From contig JAJOJJ010000045.1 in the NCBI GenBank assembly GCA_021208685.1, positions 62,001-126,000 on the forward strand: a stretch of DNA of 64,000 nt, written 5' to 3'. The notes beneath the pieces are model-generated. The model was not told the origin of the DNA. It made no database searches and was given only the letters and a program-made list of their open reading frames with translations. Of the stretch, positions 3,528-64,000 are shown piece by piece. Each line of letters begins with the position of its first letter. Positions within the stretch are counted from its first letter, which is position 1. The position numbers and the translations under genes are program-made. This stretch comes from Saccharospirillaceae bacterium. Lineage in GTDB: Bacteria; Pseudomonadota; Gammaproteobacteria; Pseudomonadales; Oceanobacteraceae.

Positions 3528-3767
3528 ATGACATTGCAAACTCTTGATCAGCTCAGCGTTGGTTCCCAGGCCCGAATCGTCGGATTTACAGCCACCGAAG
3601 CCAATTTCCGCCGCAAACTGCTGGCCCTGGGGTTAATGCCCGGCACCCGGATTGAAGTGCGCCGTTTTGCTCCGCTGGGTGATCCGATGCAGATTCAGCT
3701 GCGCGGTGCCTCTGTCAGTCTGCGTAAGCAGGAAGCCTCCATTATTCAGGTAGAAGTTATCGTATGA
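3528..3767 (+). CDS. feoA: Ferrous iron transport protein A
   Basis: A 79-residue SH3-like protein that accompanies the FeoB ferrous iron channel in the cytoplasm. The characteristic FeoA core is present (ANFRRKLLALGLMPGTRIEV, then DPMQIQLRGASVSLRKQEA). Its stop overlaps the feoB start (ATGA), so the two are translationally coupled. The Fur box 37 bp upstream implies induction under iron starvation. I found no feoC after feoB. Confidence 0.93.
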   Translation: MTLQTLDQLSVGSQARIVGFTATEANFRRKLLALGLMPGTRIEVRRFAPLGDPMQIQLRGASVSLRKQEASIIQVEVIV

Positions 3768-6058
3768 ACCGAGCGATTATTGGAGTCATCGGCAATCCGA
3801 ACTGTGGCAAAACCACCCTTTTCAACGCACTGACCGGAGCCAAGCAAAAAGTCGGCAACTGGCCTGGTGTCACCGTTGAGCGCAAAGAAGGTGCTCTGGT
3901 ATTGCGTGGGGTCAGTCATAAACTGGTCGATCTGCCCGGTACCTATGCGCTTGACAGCCATGATGATGAGTTGTCGACCGATGAGAAAATCGCCCGCGAA
4001 TTTGCGCTGAGCGGTGAAGCACAGCTGATTATTAACATCCTTGATGCCAGCAACCTTGAGCGTAATCTGTTTTTAACCTCGCAGCTGCTGGACATGGGCG
4101 TACCGGTGATCTGCGCCGTGAATATGCTGGATGTTGCCGAGCGCGAAGGGATTCATGTTGATACCCAGCTGCTGTCGCAGCAGCTCGGAGTTCCTGTCGT
4201 GCCGATTGTTGCGTCAACCGGGCGCGGTATCGAAGAGTTGTGCCGCATTCTGGCTCACCATCTGGAGCATGCCACCGTCGCCACACCGCTTATCCGTCTG
4301 GACAGCGACTTTGAGCAAGCGGTTAACCGGTTAAAAGAGCAACTGCTGGGAACCGTCGCCAATCCATTCTGGAGCGCCACCCGCATTCTGGAAAACGATA
4401 TGTACGCCAGTGAAGTATTGCCACTGGAGCGGCGCAGCGAAGTGCTCGCTCAGGCGCAGCAGCTGCGGCAACAACTGGAAAGCGAACACCATCAGCCCAT
4501 CGATGTACTGATGGCCAACAGCCGCTACCGCTCAATCCAGCATGTGTTACAGCAATCACTGACCATTAACACCAAAGGCCGCACGCTGAGCGAACGCATT
4601 GATGACTGGGTGCTGAACCGCTGGCTGGGCATCCCGTTTTTCTTTGCGGTGATGTACCTGATGTTCACCTTCGCCATTAACATTGGCGGCGCTTTTATTG
4701 ATTTCTTCGATATCGCTTTTGCCACCGTATTTGTTGACGGTACGCATTATCTGCTGGAAGGGATCGGCGCTCCGCAATGGCTGGCGACCCTGCTGGCCGA
4801 TGGTCTGGGCGGCGGTATTCAGCTGGTCGCCACGTTTATTCCGGTGATTGGCGGGTTGTATCTGTTTTTGTCGATCATCGAAGACTCTGGCTACATGGCA
4901 CGGGCCGCCTTTGTGATGGACCGGCTGATGCGGGCTGTCGGGCTGCCGGGAAAATCCTTTGTACCGCTGATCGTCGGCTTCGGCTGTAATGTACCGGCAG
5001 TCATGGCTGCCCGCACCATGGACACCCACAAAGACCGTCTGCTGACCATAGCCATGGCCCCGTTTATGTCCTGCGGTGCGCGCTTGTCGGTATATGCTCT
5101 GTTTGCTGCCGCCTTTTTTACCGAAAACGGCGCCCTGATGGTGTTCAGTCTCTATGTGCTGGGCATCGCAATGGCCCTGCTGACGGGTATCGCTCTGAAA
5201 AACACACTGTTTAAACCCGACCTGACGCCCTTTGTCATGGAATTACCTGCGTACCATATTCCGACGGTAAAAGGCATTCTGATCAAAACCTGGGAGCGGC
5301 TTAAATCGTTCTGTCTGCGCGCCGGTAAAACCATCATTACCGTGGTTGTTATCCTCAGTTTCCTTAACTCGCTGGGCAGTGATGGCTCTTTCGGTAACCA
5401 GAATAAAGAAAACTCGGTCCTGTCAAAAATCGCAAATGTGATTACACCGGTCTTTACCCCGCTCGGCGTGCAGCAGGATAACTGGGCTGCCACCGTCGGT
5501 ATCATCACCGGTATTTTTGCCAAGGAAGCCGTAGTCGGTACTCTGGATGCGCTGTACAGCCCGGAAAGCAGCGCTGACAGCGAATACTCGCTCAGTGCCG
5601 GACTGCTGGAGGCCCTGCAAACCATTCCGGATAACCTCGCAGGTCTGGCGGACACCTTGCTGGACCCGCTCGGCCTCAGCCTGATCAGCGCGGATCAGGG
5701 CGAGGAACAAGGGGTACACGCAACCACGTTCTCAACCATGGATGCGCTGTTCGGCAGCCAGTTAGCGGCCTTTTCGTATCTGGTCTTTGTGCTGCTTTAT
5801 ACCCCTTGTGTGGCAACCCTCGGAGCCATGGTGCGCGAAGCCGGTTTACGCTGGATGCTGTTTGTTGCCGGCTGGAGTACCGGACTGGCTTACACCACGG
5901 CGGTGATCGTTTATCAGCTCGGCAGTCTGCCTCAGCACCCGCTCAGCTCCATGCTGTGGGTGGCGGGCTGCATCGCCTTTATTGGCCTGAGCCTGTGGCA
6001 GATGCGCCGTTATGGGCAGAAGCAGAACGCCCGCCTGATTCCTCTTACTCCTGTCTGA
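3764..6058 (+). CDS. feoB: Ferrous iron transporter B (GTPase-permease)
   Basis: Fe(II) uptake permease of the inner membrane, 764 residues, normal for the family. The N-terminal G domain shows G1 GNPNCGKTT (residues 10-18), G3 DLPG (56-59) and G4 NMLD (120-123). A helical spacer follows to about residue 270. Then come the membrane segments with the two gate-type repeats: the first around GGGIQLVATFIPVIGGLY and FVPLIVGFGCNVPAVMA, the second around TGIFAKEAVVGTLDALY. It overlaps feoA by 4 nt. A GC-rich hairpin without a T-run follows at 6069-6102. No frameshift or missing motif seen. Confidence 0.95.
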   Translation: MNRAIIGVIGNPNCGKTTLFNALTGAKQKVGNWPGVTVERKEGALVLRGVSHKLVDLPGTYALDSHDDELSTDEKIAREFALSGEAQLIINILDASNLERNLFLTSQLLDMGVPVICAVNMLDVAEREGIHVDTQLLSQQLGVPVVPIVASTGRGIEELCRILAHHLEHATVATPLIRLDSDFEQAVNRLKEQLLGTVANPFWSATRILENDMYASEVLPLERRSEVLAQAQQLRQQLESEHHQPIDVLMANSRYRSIQHVLQQSLTINTKGRTLSERIDDWVLNRWLGIPFFFAVMYLMFTFAINIGGAFIDFFDIAFATVFVDGTHYLLEGIGAPQWLATLLADGLGGGIQLVATFIPVIGGLYLFLSIIEDSGYMARAAFVMDRLMRAVGLPGKSFVPLIVGFGCNVPAVMAARTMDTHKDRLLTIAMAPFMSCGARLSVYALFAAAFFTENGALMVFSLYVLGIAMALLTGIALKNTLFKPDLTPFVMELPAYHIPTVKGILIKTWERLKSFCLRAGKTIITVVVILSFLNSLGSDGSFGNQNKENSVLSKIANVITPVFTPLGVQQDNWAATVGIITGIFAKEAVVGTLDALYSPESSADSEYSLSAGLLEALQTIPDNLAGLADTLLDPLGLSLISADQGEEQGVHATTFSTMDALFGSQLAAFSYLVFVLLYTPCVATLGAMVREAGLRWMLFVAGWSTGLAYTTAVIVYQLGSLPQHPLSSMLWVAGCIAFIGLSLWQMRRYGQKQNARLIPLTPV

Positions 6059-59969: not shown

Positions 59970-60941
59970 CTATGCGCCGGTTTTCAGCTCCGGCTGTGCG
60001 GCAAACCACTGACGACTGAGCGCTACCCGCTCAGCGGCGGGACGGGCAACATCAGCATCGCTCAAGGCATCAATAATTTTCAGACGCGGTAACAGTCCGC
60101 ATCCATTCGCAACCTGAATCGTGAGTCCCGGACGGGCATTTAATTCCAGCAACATCGGACCGTAGCGACGATCGAGCACCATATCCGTGCCCAGATAACC
60201 CAGGCCACTTTCTTCATAGCAACGTGCGGCCAACTCCAGCAGCTGCCCCCACTGCGGAATGACCAGCTCGGATAATTCGCGGCCAGTATCCGGATGACGC
60301 TCAACGCTCAGGCCATTCTGAACCGCTTTTAATGGTCTGCCGGTAGCAATATCCAACCCGACACCAACCGCCCCCTGATGCAAATTTGCTTTACCGTCAG
60401 AATTACGTGTGGACAGGCGCATCATAGCCATTACCGGATAACCGCGGCATACAATCACGCGGATATCCGGCACACCTTCAAACGAATACCCACCCAACTG
60501 CTGATCAAACTCAATAAGCTCTTCAATGATGGCAATATCCGGGCTGCCACCCAGACTGTAAAGCCCCGACAATATATTCGACACATGGCGCTGTAATTCA
60601 GCCAGTGTCACCAGCGCTCCGCTGTTTTTTATGTACTGCTCATCATCGTGACGGCTCAGTACCAGAATTCCTTTGCCACCACTGCCTTTGGCCGGCTTAA
60701 TGGCAAACCCCGGCACATCTCGCAACAGATCAGCAAGCAACGAAACATCATGCTGATTCTGAACCGTACCAATCAACGCGGGAGTGGTTATACCCGCCTT
60801 TTGCGCCAACAGTTTTGTCTTCAGTTTATTATCGACAAGAGGATATAAACGGCGCGGATTATAGCGGCTGATATAACTGATATTTCGCCGGTTCATACCC
60901 AGAATTCCGCGCCGTTCAAGACGCCATGGAAAGGTAAACAC
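59970..60941 (-). CDS. RimK-related ATP-grasp ligase
   Basis: 323 residues, GTG with GGGAG upstream, 1 bp after the stop of the 7TM gene. ATP-grasp features: NKLKTKLLAQKAGI, the P-loop-like AIKPAKGSGGKGILVL, EELIEFD, the VPDIRVIVCRG strand, and metal-binding LLELNARPGLTIQ. It belongs to the alpha-L-glutamate ligase-related group, which forms an amide or peptide bond using ATP; the substrate is unknown. It is the last gene of a conserved-looking operon with the inactive transglutaminase/7TM protein and a retropepsin-like lipoprotein. Confidence 0.85.
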   Translation of the reverse strand: MFTFPWRLERRGILGMNRRNISYISRYNPRRLYPLVDNKLKTKLLAQKAGITTPALIGTVQNQHDVSLLADLLRDVPGFAIKPAKGSGGKGILVLSRHDDEQYIKNSGALVTLAELQRHVSNILSGLYSLGGSPDIAIIEELIEFDQQLGGYSFEGVPDIRVIVCRGYPVMAMMRLSTRNSDGKANLHQGAVGVGLDIATGRPLKAVQNGLSVERHPDTGRELSELVIPQWGQLLELAARCYEESGLGYLGTDMVLDRRYGPMLLELNARPGLTIQVANGCGLLPRLKIIDALSDADVARPAAERVALSRQWFAAQPELKTGA

Positions 60942-60942
60942 G

Positions 60943-62487
60943 TCAGCTCCCGAACGCTTTGAAGCGTTTCAGTTCCAGCAGTCGGTAGCCGGTGTATGAG
61001 CCAATCAGCAATACCAGCGCCAGCACAATAAACTGAATACCGATAAAGTTGAACGTCAGATGACGGACCCAGGGATCGCTCATTGCCCAGTAAGCGAGCA
61101 CAGCGGTCAGTAAGCTGCCGCCACCCTGCACCATTACCTCACGCCCCCCCTCTTCTTCCCACAGAATCGACATGCGTTCGATCGTCCAGGACAAAATAAT
61201 CATTGGGAAGAAGGTAATTTTTAATCCTTCGGTAAGACCGACTTTATAAGACAGCACACTGAAAATACTGATGATTGCAATAACGGTAATAATCACCGCC
61301 GTGATCCGCGCCACCAACAGTAAATTCAGACGCGATAAGTAACTGCGGATAAACAACCCGGTTGCGACCACCAGTAAAAAGCCTATCAGCCCGGTCACCA
61401 GCGATGTCTGAATAAATGCCAGCGCAATTAATACCGGCATAAAAGTACCTGATGTGCGAATACCGATAATAATTCGCAAGATACAGACAATCAGCGCTCC
61501 GATAGGAATCAGCAGAATGGTTTTAAACATTGCCTGTTCTTCCACCGGCAAACTGTGAATGGAAAAATTCAGGAAATCATGCTGACTGGACAGATTTTCA
61601 GCAATATTGGCATAGGTTGATTCTTCTCGCTTAAGCATTGAGAAACGAATGCTTGAATCTGTTCCACCTGTGACATCAAGAACAGGAGCTCCGCGTTGCT
61701 CCCACAACAATAAAGGCGCATCAGCAGCGAGCAGAAGCGAAGCATTACTTTCCTCTCCCGGCAGCTCGAATATTTCACTGTCATTACCGTTCCAGACACG
61801 CAGTAACGGTGTCAGATTCTGACGACGCCGGCCATCCTGTAAATTCAGACCGTAAACCACCGAAGCCGGAACCCGGGCCTTATGCAGCATGTCGACCCAC
61901 AGCTCCGGCAACTGATCAGCATAATGGGTGCGCAGTAATTCGATGTGCTGCGCCGTTTCATCTTCCTGAAAGCGCTTCAGCAATTCCCGTGTCAGGCTGT
62001 AATTATCAGCTGATGTTGCATAAGCACCGGCCAGAACTTCATTCACCGCACTGGCGTATGGCTCAGGCCAACTCACCGGTTGAATGGATGGCGGTGGGAG
62101 ATCGGCACCGGACTGCATCTGGCTGACCAGAATCTCAGCGCGGTAAAACAATTCCTGTTTTCCTTTAGCTCCGCGAACCGTCCACTCTGCCCGCGGCTCG
62201 TTGCCGTCCATAAAATTCAGGCCATAACCGGGCGAGGCTCCGGCTTCTTTTAACACGGTAAAGCCATCCTGAGCGGATGGGCGCGCCATCGAGACTTTCA
62301 CCGGCCCGCCATGGGCATTGAATTCGACTTTAGCCTCTACCGACCAGATGGTCTGGGTTTCACCGTATACCAGCGGAACTTCATACATCCAATGGCGGTG
62401 CAGTGTCAGCACGATGCCAATCACCAGTAAAAATCCGACCAGCAGAAAGAACGGAATGCGGGTAAATGAAAATGGACCAATATTCAT
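60943..62487 (-). CDS. Inactive transglutaminase fused to seven membrane helices
   Basis: 514 residues. One N-terminal helix (FFLLVGFLLVIGIVLTL), a periplasmic part of about 300 residues with a degenerate transglutaminase-like fold (ELWVDMLHKARVPASVVYGL, where the Cys of active enzymes is absent), then seven helices from about residue 325 (TILLIPIGALIVCILRIIIGI ... LVLLIGSYTGYRLLEL). TSGTFMPVLIALAF is a family hallmark. Known only from comparative genomics, where it occurs with ATP-grasp ligases and pepsin-like proteases, as here. Probably senses or handles the peptide tag in the periplasm (inference). Confidence 0.85.
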   Translation of the reverse strand: MNIGPFSFTRIPFFLLVGFLLVIGIVLTLHRHWMYEVPLVYGETQTIWSVEAKVEFNAHGGPVKVSMARPSAQDGFTVLKEAGASPGYGLNFMDGNEPRAEWTVRGAKGKQELFYRAEILVSQMQSGADLPPPSIQPVSWPEPYASAVNEVLAGAYATSADNYSLTRELLKRFQEDETAQHIELLRTHYADQLPELWVDMLHKARVPASVVYGLNLQDGRRRQNLTPLLRVWNGNDSEIFELPGEESNASLLLAADAPLLLWEQRGAPVLDVTGGTDSSIRFSMLKREESTYANIAENLSSQHDFLNFSIHSLPVEEQAMFKTILLIPIGALIVCILRIIIGIRTSGTFMPVLIALAFIQTSLVTGLIGFLLVVATGLFIRSYLSRLNLLLVARITAVIITVIAIISIFSVLSYKVGLTEGLKITFFPMIILSWTIERMSILWEEEGGREVMVQGGGSLLTAVLAYWAMSDPWVRHLTFNFIGIQFIVLALVLLIGSYTGYRLLELKRFKAFGS

Positions 62488-62490
62488 AAA

Positions 62491-63474
62491 TTAGGGGGTC
62501 GTTGACGGCAAGGAAGCAGGAGCCGGTTGAGCATCGACCGCCGTTTCATCAGCAATGTCAGATACAGACGTTGCATCATCCGTGGTGGCCTCAGTGTTCT
62601 GCCCGGCAGGTTTATTGTTTTTCAGACGCTCAGTATCCGCCGTTGTGGTTGTCGCTGTCACGGGACGCTGAGTTTTTTCTGCCGACGTTTTTTCCGTCAC
62701 GGCCGCAGGTAAATTGACCGGTACAGTGTCCGGAACAAACTTAGCGTGCAGGAAACGGCGTCCGACATCAATCAGGGTAACATCACGCAAAAATTCACGC
62801 CCTAACAGAATCGGGTATGTCATTTGCGAACGGTCGGTGAGCGTGAATTCGGTATCCTGTTGCAGCGCACTCCCGAGATTAACCGTCAGCGATACAACGG
62901 GACGCCGATCTACCTCATCGCTGGAGGCCTGACGGATCAGGACATGGCGTATCAGCGGCGCTTCAATTTCGATCGGTTCAGCTTCATCATCATGCTGCAA
63001 CCAGAAGCGAACCCAGCGTTTACCATTACGTTCAAAACGTTCCACGTTCACGGCGCTCAGCGAAGACGTCGCAGCGCCACTGTCAATTCGTGCCTGGTAG
63101 TGGTGACCCGGCGGAGACAGGTAAATCCACTCACTGGCGCCGATGATGGTTTTGCCATCCATCAGGGTTGCCGGCGCCTCCCGGGGCGGACATTCCGCAG
63201 CCGAAAATGTCGGTGAAACCGCCGTCAATGACTGCAGCTGCTTACTGATACGGACCAGCTGCAAGCGTTGACGCCGCAACGTATCCTCCAGCGCGGTAAC
63301 ATCGGCGCAGGCGGTGACCACCGGCGCAGGCTCCGCGACCGGAATCTTCTGATCCAGCAATTTTTCAATATCCGCCAACGTCAGATCACGATGTTCCGGG
63401 CCAGGCCAGACACTGCAGCCGGAACTGATCAGGGCAACACAAGCTATGAGGAAAAACGATGCCCGGAGGGGCAT
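62491..63474 (-). CDS. Retropepsin-like (RimB-type) lipoprotein
   Basis: 327 residues from ATG 63474 with GGAGG upstream; the track start is 22 codons earlier. Signal peptide with lipobox ISSGC (Cys20), a coiled segment (EDTLRRQRLQLVRISKQLQSL), then the protease-like domain with ARIDSGAATSSLSA (the DSGA motif of retropepsins) and YPILLGREFL. The last 70 residues are Thr/Ala/Asp-rich and probably disordered. Databases often call the family ATP-dependent zinc protease; the sequence looks like an aspartic-protease fold. Start of the operon with the 7TM and ATP-grasp genes. Confidence 0.82.
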   Translation of the reverse strand: MPLRASFFLIACVALISSGCSVWPGPEHRDLTLADIEKLLDQKIPVAEPAPVVTACADVTALEDTLRRQRLQLVRISKQLQSLTAVSPTFSAAECPPREAPATLMDGKTIIGASEWIYLSPPGHHYQARIDSGAATSSLSAVNVERFERNGKRWVRFWLQHDDEAEPIEIEAPLIRHVLIRQASSDEVDRRPVVSLTVNLGSALQQDTEFTLTDRSQMTYPILLGREFLRDVTLIDVGRRFLHAKFVPDTVPVNLPAAVTEKTSAEKTQRPVTATTTTADTERLKNNKPAGQNTEATTDDATSVSDIADETAVDAQPAPASLPSTTP

Positions 63475-63654
63475 AACAACCTCCACCAACAGAGAAATGC
63501 GTGCGGCATTTAACCACAGAACGCAGGGGAATCTGAACACAGGTACAACCTTTTTAGCGCGTTATTATAGGGGGATACTGATTTTTCAGGAGCAGGGGAC
63601 AAACCGGCACAATAAGAGAATGACAATGCCTGACGCGCTTTGACCGGACCATAA

Positions 63655-63682
63655 CAAAAAAGCTCCCGTGAGGAGCTTTTTT
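63655..63682 (-). terminator. Terminator of the bacterioferritin gene
   Basis: AAAAGCTCC-CGTGA-GGAGCTTTT with A- and T-runs on both sides; works leftward after bfr and also rightward. Confidence 0.85.
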
Positions 63683-63702: not shown

Positions 63703-64000
63703 TCAGGACATCTGCGACTGCAGATAATTTGGCAAGCCAATTTTGTCGATCAGACCTAATTGCTGTTCCAGCCAGTGAGTGTGGTCGTTTTCGGTATCAT
63801 CCAGCAGTACCTGCAACATTTCACGGGTCTGATAGTCCTGAACCTGTTCGCACAGCGCCATGACATCACGCAGATCCACAATCACTTTGTATTCCAGATC
63901 CAGATCACTCTTCAGCATCGCCGGTACATCTTTGCCGATATTCAGCGGAATACGGGTGACCATATCCGGAACACCGCCCAGAAACAGAATGCGTTCAATC
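63703..64000 (-). CDS. bfr: Bacterioferritin, C-terminal part
   Basis: The frame continues past the track start (63963) to the right edge (IERILFLGGVPDMVTRIPLNIG), so the gene is truncated by the window and its N-terminal helices are missing. The remaining 98 residues match bacterioferritin helices C-D: DVPAMLKSDLDLE, YQTREMLQVLLDDTENDHTHWLEQQLGLIDKIGLPNYLQSQ, with ferroxidase-type Glu and His ligands (ENDHTHWLE). Stores iron in a haem-containing 24-mer. Iron-related like feoAB at the other end of the window. Confidence 0.93.
   Translation of the reverse strand, partial: IERILFLGGVPDMVTRIPLNIGKDVPAMLKSDLDLEYKVIVDLRDVMALCEQVQDYQTREMLQVLLDDTENDHTHWLEQQLGLIDKIGLPNYLQSQMS

Follow-up and report, generated by a model that had tools for sequence, protein, structure and literature searches.

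The closest described counterpart of the locus examined here is an operon of Pseudomonas aeruginosa (PA1768-PA1767-PA1766), named rloABC, in which the secreted protease RloA cuts runs of at least eight glutamates (mBio 2025; PMC12239564). Our locus lies at positions 59970 to 63474 of a 64,000-nucleotide stretch of DNA from a Saccharospirillaceae bacterium (assembly GCA_021208685.1, contig JAJOJJ010000045.1, positions 62,001 to 126,000 of the forward strand), which was analyzed as a whole and is called the window below. Three leftward open reading frames (ORFs) were confirmed there on the minus strand, corresponding to rloA, rloB, and rloC. We describe how they compare with known systems, report variants of rloBC that carry outer-membrane parts, and propose a role for RloB in the export of a glutamate polymer.

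In P. aeruginosa, deletion of the three RloA proteases (rloA1-3) kills cells in low salt and compromises biofilm formation, cell shape, and beta-lactam tolerance, and their loss is rescued by deletion of rloB or rloC (PMC12239564). Two RloA structures have been solved, the protease cleaves both C-terminal and internal E8 runs on proteins, and with R114A and R137A its function is lost in vitro and in vivo (PMC12239564). No genome-encoded polyglutamate substrate was found, and free poly-alpha-glutamate was named as one possible substrate; the study demonstrated neither a polymer nor an acceptor or transport role, and its text never mentions PgsC, CapC, export, or transport (PMC12239564). In Shewanella vesiculosa, disruption of an RloB-type gene leads to hypervesiculation (PMC12096838), and transposon insertions in PA1766-PA1768 came from a P. 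aeruginosa suppressor screen linked to exopolysaccharide (PMC7314104). A second related system, RimB-RimK, likewise combines a protease of family PF05618 and a ligase related to RimK but differs in that RimB is cytoplasmic, RimK has a pre-ATP-grasp domain, and there is no membrane partner. RimB lets RimK make free poly-alpha-glutamate, up to 28 residues long in vitro (PMC11957791).

An rloABC operon with a somewhat unusual RloA

The locus is an rloABC operon and an ordinary member of the known system. Its three genes are codirectional, adjacent, and in the same order as in P. aeruginosa, with 3 bp between rloA and rloB (TAA-TTT-ATG) and 1 bp between rloB and rloC (TGA-C-GTG), in agreement with the 1- to 20-bp spacing of the original prediction, and their Pfam and NCBIfam matches, far above chance, bear out the family motifs seen there. 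Likeness to the P. aeruginosa operon extends to the domains, the dead transglutaminase, the RloA contact residues, and the TIGR02291 ligase. A comparative-genomics paper, Iyer 2009, which PMC12239564 cites, is the probable source of the claim that the trio had been noted before. The trio is already known; the description of it as uncharacterised and without a known substrate has been overtaken by the naming of rloABC, the cleavage of at least eight glutamates by RloA, and the published structures and epistasis (PMC12239564). What is left for a new model is the mechanism of RloB.

Like other members of the RloABC system, the host RloA is a PF05618 retropepsin with an export signal and basic polyglutamate-contact residues. 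Its best start is the ATG at 63474, preceded by a GGAGG-like ribosome site (GGTGGAGG), and its N terminus is a hydrophobic signal sequence ending in LISSGC, a putative lipobox, so that RloA may be a lipoprotein, as judged from a PROSITE-type pattern. The protein matched both RloA structures in the PDB (9g58, E 2e-20; 9g59, E 2e-18), yet scored under the cut-offs of the separate NCBIfam models for RloA1, RloA2, and RloA3. Residue numbers of P. aeruginosa RloA were transferred via the P. fluorescens structure 9g58 (offset 20), and all named residues fell on matching letters. The contact positions K46/R92/R114/R137 are R/R/R/R in the host protein. Across the 72 RloAs linked to rloB in our gene-order sample (below), the catalytic Asp (D48), R114, and R137 were kept in 72/72, as in the host, position 46 was K or R in 72/72, and position 92 was R or K in 65. 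Since the substrate contacts are conserved, the host RloA should share the same substrate preference.

In other respects this RloA departs from its relatives. Compared with the P. aeruginosa protein it has the catalytic motif DSGA instead of DTGA, the putative lipobox, an N-terminal insert of ~85 amino acids (aa), and a low-complexity C-terminal tail of ~80 aa rich in Thr, Ala, Glu, and Asp (62491-62720, minus strand). At 327 aa it is longer than most relatives, with 71 of the 72 linked RloAs falling between 170 and 267 aa, and a Cys of P. fluorescens RloA is missing at the matching position. Whereas P. aeruginosa has three RloAs, the host genome has one linked RloA and one RimB. The latter belongs to a separate rimB-rimK pair on host contig C8 (L002), meaning that rlo is not the ribosome-modification system of this bacterium. 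The rlo genes also lack the hallmarks of RimBK, a cytoplasmic protease and a RimK with PF18030: RloA has a signal sequence, and RloC had no Pfam match to the pre-ATP-grasp domain PF18030.

RloC was placed among RimK relatives. It matched PF14397 (E 3e-96) and scored 450.8 bits with TIGR02291, whose cut-off is 314.2, and a profile search of the PDB returned only RimK and alpha-glutamate ligases, cyanophycin synthases, and the tubulin polyglutamylase TTLL7. The nearest fold to its AlphaFold2 model (predicted local distance difference test [pLDDT] score, 93) was RimK, in an entry titled poly-alpha-L-glutamate synthetase.

RloB has the inactive transglutaminase fused to a seven-transmembrane (7TM) domain that typifies the RloABC system. 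It matched PF14400 (E 6e-52) and PF14402 (E 4e-110); its sole NCBIfam match was the "exception" model NF052267 RloB (E 8e-89; 298.7 bits against a cut-off of 900). Aligned with an intact relative, the transglutaminase domain lacks not only the catalytic Cys, as originally predicted, but also the His, neither being present within 3 columns, and the Cys-His-Asp triad of an active transglutaminase or papain-like peptidase is thus absent. This domain is predicted to be periplasmic and the C terminus cytoplasmic. A Foldseek match of the AlphaFold2 model (pLDDT 87.5) to 3isr (E 8e-7) confirms a transglutaminase/cysteine-protease-like fold of the periplasmic part; a profile search of the PDB gave a marginal transglutaminase and nothing else, and Foldseek against viral models gave nothing significant.

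Co-occurrence of the genes and variants with outer-membrane parts

We surveyed 398 Pseudomonadota genomes, taking PF14402 as RloB and TIGR02291 at 250 bits or more as RloC. RloB was found in 71 genomes from 35 genera and strong RloC in the same 71, with no orphan of either, although closely related genomes in the survey are not independent. According to the original prediction, independent occurrence of the three families would speak against a joint system. Instead, RloB and RloC were never apart, and PF05618, which pools RloA and RimB, occurred in 69 of the 71 RloB-positive genomes versus 83 of the other 327. In those 327 genomes it was almost always single copy, as expected for a cytoplasmic RimB, and 55 of the 58 genomes with at least two copies were RloB-positive.

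Gene order was compared at 100 loci in two sets of 20 and 80, the larger spanning Nitrosomonas, Legionella, Thioalkalivibrio, Methylococcus, Lysobacter, and metagenome-assembled genomes (MAGs) labelled Nitrospirales, Desulfobacterales, and Deltaproteobacteria. RloC stood directly downstream of RloB in every case (in 2 after allowing for an over-extended ORF start), and RloA immediately preceded RloB in 72 of the 98 loci with enough contig on that side. The other 26 loci had mostly housekeeping genes or noncoding DNA upstream of rloB; their RloA is presumably unlinked, by analogy with RloA2 and RloA3 of P. aeruginosa. One contig (L075), from a MAG labelled Klebsiella pneumoniae, encodes an RloB 69% identical to a gammaproteobacterial one and probably comes from a mislabelled or contaminated bin.

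Two groups of loci lie outside the classic operons and have outer-membrane export parts in place of RloA, a finding that is new in this analysis. The first (f48) comprises five genomes of one family, which we guess is probably zetaproteobacterial. Its RloB keeps the Cys-His-Asp triad (PF01841, E 6.5e-15 in L035), found intact only in these five relatives, and rloA is not adjacent; among three genomes sampled for PF05618, two had no such gene and one carried a single short copy away from rloBC. Downstream of rloBC, all five encode a TPR protein with a membrane anchor at its N terminus. The contig of L036 breaks off within this gene; in the other four, a beta-barrel with a signal sequence comes next. 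One of these barrels resembles the polysaccharide-export outer-membrane protein EpsL (E 4e-6, under the curated cut-off). These operons thereby recall exopolymer secretion of the EpsL/PrsT, PgaA, or BcsC type, but they have no glycosyltransferase, their ligase is of the amino-acid type, and the TPR and barrel parts are absent from the window.

The second group (f54; L033 and L034) has an RloB devoid of the transglutaminase domain. Here the barrel gene precedes rloBC, is unrelated to that of f48, and encodes a product that ends in an aromatic residue. Barrel calls in both groups were based on a signal sequence, a repeat pattern, and (mostly) a terminal aromatic residue, with no structure behind them. 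In an RloC tree rooted with RimK, f54 was the first branch and f48 the second (96/73), with the classic operons all in one clade (98/97). Loss of transglutaminase activity coincides with use of RloA, and the f48 and f54 loci, in which RloA is unlinked, have an outer-membrane passage instead. In L033, a cytoplasmic-type rimB-rimK pair (3674-5067) was also observed directly upstream of barrel-rloB-rloC, placing both polyglutamate systems side by side.

A possible synthase-exporter and its alternatives

Poly-gamma-glutamate synthase includes a small membrane protein, PgsC/CapC. The PgsB-PgsC(-PgsA)/CapBCA systems resemble rloABC in their logic of a ligase, a multipass membrane protein, and a depolymerase, and PgsC is weakly colinear with the RloB membrane domain. 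By eye, both show helix 1, a G-x-x-x-P-x-x-I/L-A loop, helix 2, a basic loop, helix 3, and a second such motif. RloC, in contrast, is an ATP-grasp enzyme nearest to RimK and not of the PgsB type, and the linkage of its product is presumably alpha. A CapC profile was built from 12 sequences (from Streptomyces and Cetobacterium, and the tandem CapC found in Zeta-like genomes) and one additional Bacillus subtilis PgsC entered by hand. Searched against 2351 ORFs of RloB loci, it ranked RloBs in the top five places, at E values of 0.26 to 3.9. Run the other way, a diverse RloB profile placed a CapC first (E 0.003) and a noncoding-looking ORF second, and 7 of the top 15 rows were CapC. Profile-profile scores against column shuffles that preserve hydropathy gave P of ~0.02 (7/300 local, 5/300 global), and none of 300 rotated-reversed decoys reached the real score, a weak control, since local scores were constant. 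Neither a lax-cut-off Pfam scan of the RloB membrane part nor a search of the host genome returned PF14102 (PgsC/CapC), and plain PDB sequence searches with RloB, PgsC, or tandem CapC gave nothing useful. Together, these comparisons amount to a weak two-way similarity, which we regard as suggestive.

A PF14102 match in genome G183, considered as a bridge between CapC and RloB, was rejected as a chance match to a CtaA/COX15-type membrane protein (L055). Four proteins of ~1080 aa in relatives of the Zeta-like genomes (L153, 7686-10937; L154, 748-3999; L155, 8486-11725; L156, 7485-10736) contain two tandem PgsC/CapC domains and a long soluble C terminus, with TIGR04011 matched at E 4.5e-18, below its cut-off. 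Their genes recur in a cluster that also encodes a membrane protein of 818 to 827 aa and, in three cases, a response regulator; no adjoining ligase was found, and no ATP-grasp neighbor ties CapC to RloC there.

We lean modestly towards the view that RloBC is a poly-alpha-glutamate synthase and exporter whose product RloA trims in the periplasm; the product of RloC and the export role of RloB are what we infer here. RloC would polymerize L-glutamate in the cytoplasm, probably in alpha linkage as RimK does, and RloB would couple the making of the chain to its passage out through the inner membrane, its dead transglutaminase domain perhaps serving as a periplasmic binding cuff. By cutting the chain in the periplasm, RloA would hold its length or amount at a tolerable level. 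Without RloA, a long anionic polymer would build up, upset the osmotic balance of the envelope, and kill cells in low salt; removal of RloB or RloC would abolish production and rescue them. The original prediction, that a small cytoplasmic peptide is handled by the membrane protein and trimmed at the envelope, is consistent with all the evidence and can be sharpened to poly-alpha-glutamate, while its suggestion that the 7TM protein senses the peptide found no support.

The strongest alternative, rather unlikely in our judgment, is that RloC and RloB write a polyglutamate tag onto an acceptor in the envelope (a protein of the periplasm or outer membrane, a lipid, or the peptidoglycan stem) and that RloA erases it, by analogy with RimK and RimB acting on ribosomal protein S6. 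The RimK-RimB pair acts in this way in the cytoplasm, RloA can cut C-terminal and internal E8 on proteins, the shape and beta-lactam phenotypes of the rloA1-3 mutant point at peptidoglycan (PMC12239564), and the Shewanella hypervesiculation (PMC12096838) would also fit. The rescue genetics, in which loss of the protease is toxic and loss of the synthase or membrane protein suppresses it, are predicted equally by tagging and by export. However, RloC is cytoplasmic and RloA secreted, so that a tagged product would have to cross the membrane, and no acceptor gene was seen recurring beside the operon (neighbors were not clustered systematically). It is mainly the outer-membrane barrels of the f48 and f54 variants, which fit a secreted polymer better, that tip the balance towards a secreted or periplasmic polymer.

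RloB might instead be a signalling receptor, with a periplasmic peptide bound by its dead transglutaminase domain and RloC controlled by the 7TM part. Ligand binding is common among dead enzyme domains, and both the 7TM architecture and the surface and envelope phenotypes suit a receptor; yet the f54 loci keep the membrane domain with RloC but without any transglutaminase, another lineage keeps the catalytic triad, and rloB and rloC deletions behave alike (PMC12239564), all of which makes a receptor improbable. Chance adjacency of unrelated genes, for which one might invoke the wide distribution of the ATP-grasp and PF05618 families, has a negligible probability and is already refuted by the pairing of RloB and RloC (co-occurring in 71/71, adjacent in 100/100), the 72/98 adjacency of RloA, and the published epistasis.

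Several points weigh against polymer export. The RloB membrane domain had no PDB match by Foldseek or profile search, and its similarity to PgsC/CapC is below family thresholds, consists of short motifs, gave hhalign probabilities under 5%, and involved the one CapC sequence entered by hand. In the RimK-rooted tree, long branches leave the root tentative and the second step is supported at only 96/73; the five f48 genomes are one family, in which the gene order is close to one event; and classic operons contain no outer-membrane part.

A wider reading, possible but on the whole doubtful, would make the RloB membrane domain a distant homologue of PgsC/CapC and RloBC a Gram-negative poly-alpha-glutamate synthase-exporter. 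The outlying forms would secrete the polymer through the outer membrane via a barrel of their own, and in one lineage a still-active transglutaminase-type peptidase would trim it. The classic form would have lost that activity, recruited RloA, and retained the chain in the periplasm, where it would be an anionic polymer under osmotic regulation. If so, the rlo phenotypes (hypo-osmotic survival, beta-lactam tolerance, biofilm, and shape in P. aeruginosa, vesicles in Shewanella) would all trace back to an anionic polymer in the periplasm, and the outlying variants would be natural experiments on a change of trimming enzyme and destination.

Coordinates and flanking features

Coordinates of the operon and of two candidate regulatory features in the window.
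Feature	Position	Strand	Description	Evidence
rloA	62491..63474	-	Secreted retropepsin-like aspartic endopeptidase, 327 aa	PF05618, E 5e-38
rloB	60943..62487	-	N-terminal helix, dead periplasmic transglutaminase-like domain, and C-terminal 7-helix membrane domain, 514 aa	
rloC	59970..60941	-	RimK-like ATP-grasp ligase, 323 aa	GTG start, GGGAG upstream
Candidate -10 TATAAT	63564..63569	-	~90 nt before rloA; no good -35 hexamer; weak	Read from sequence
Hairpin AAAAGCTCC-TCAC-GGGAGCTTTTT and T run	63656..63682	-	Between bacterioferritin-like gene and rloA	Read by eye

A consensus scan listed neither the TATAAT nor the hairpin. The TATAAT itself is perfect and has no recognizable -35 box, which might mark an activator-dependent promoter; in Vibrio cholerae, rlo is under VxrB control (PMC12239564). 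Upstream of rloA, a bacterioferritin-like gene ends at 63703, and the hairpin is likely a terminator that splits it from the rlo transcription unit. Downstream of rloC, an HDOD gene is convergent with the operon (both neighbors were named from reading their sequences). With the hairpin and T run on one side and the convergent gene on the other, the transcription unit probably consists of just rloA, rloB, and rloC.

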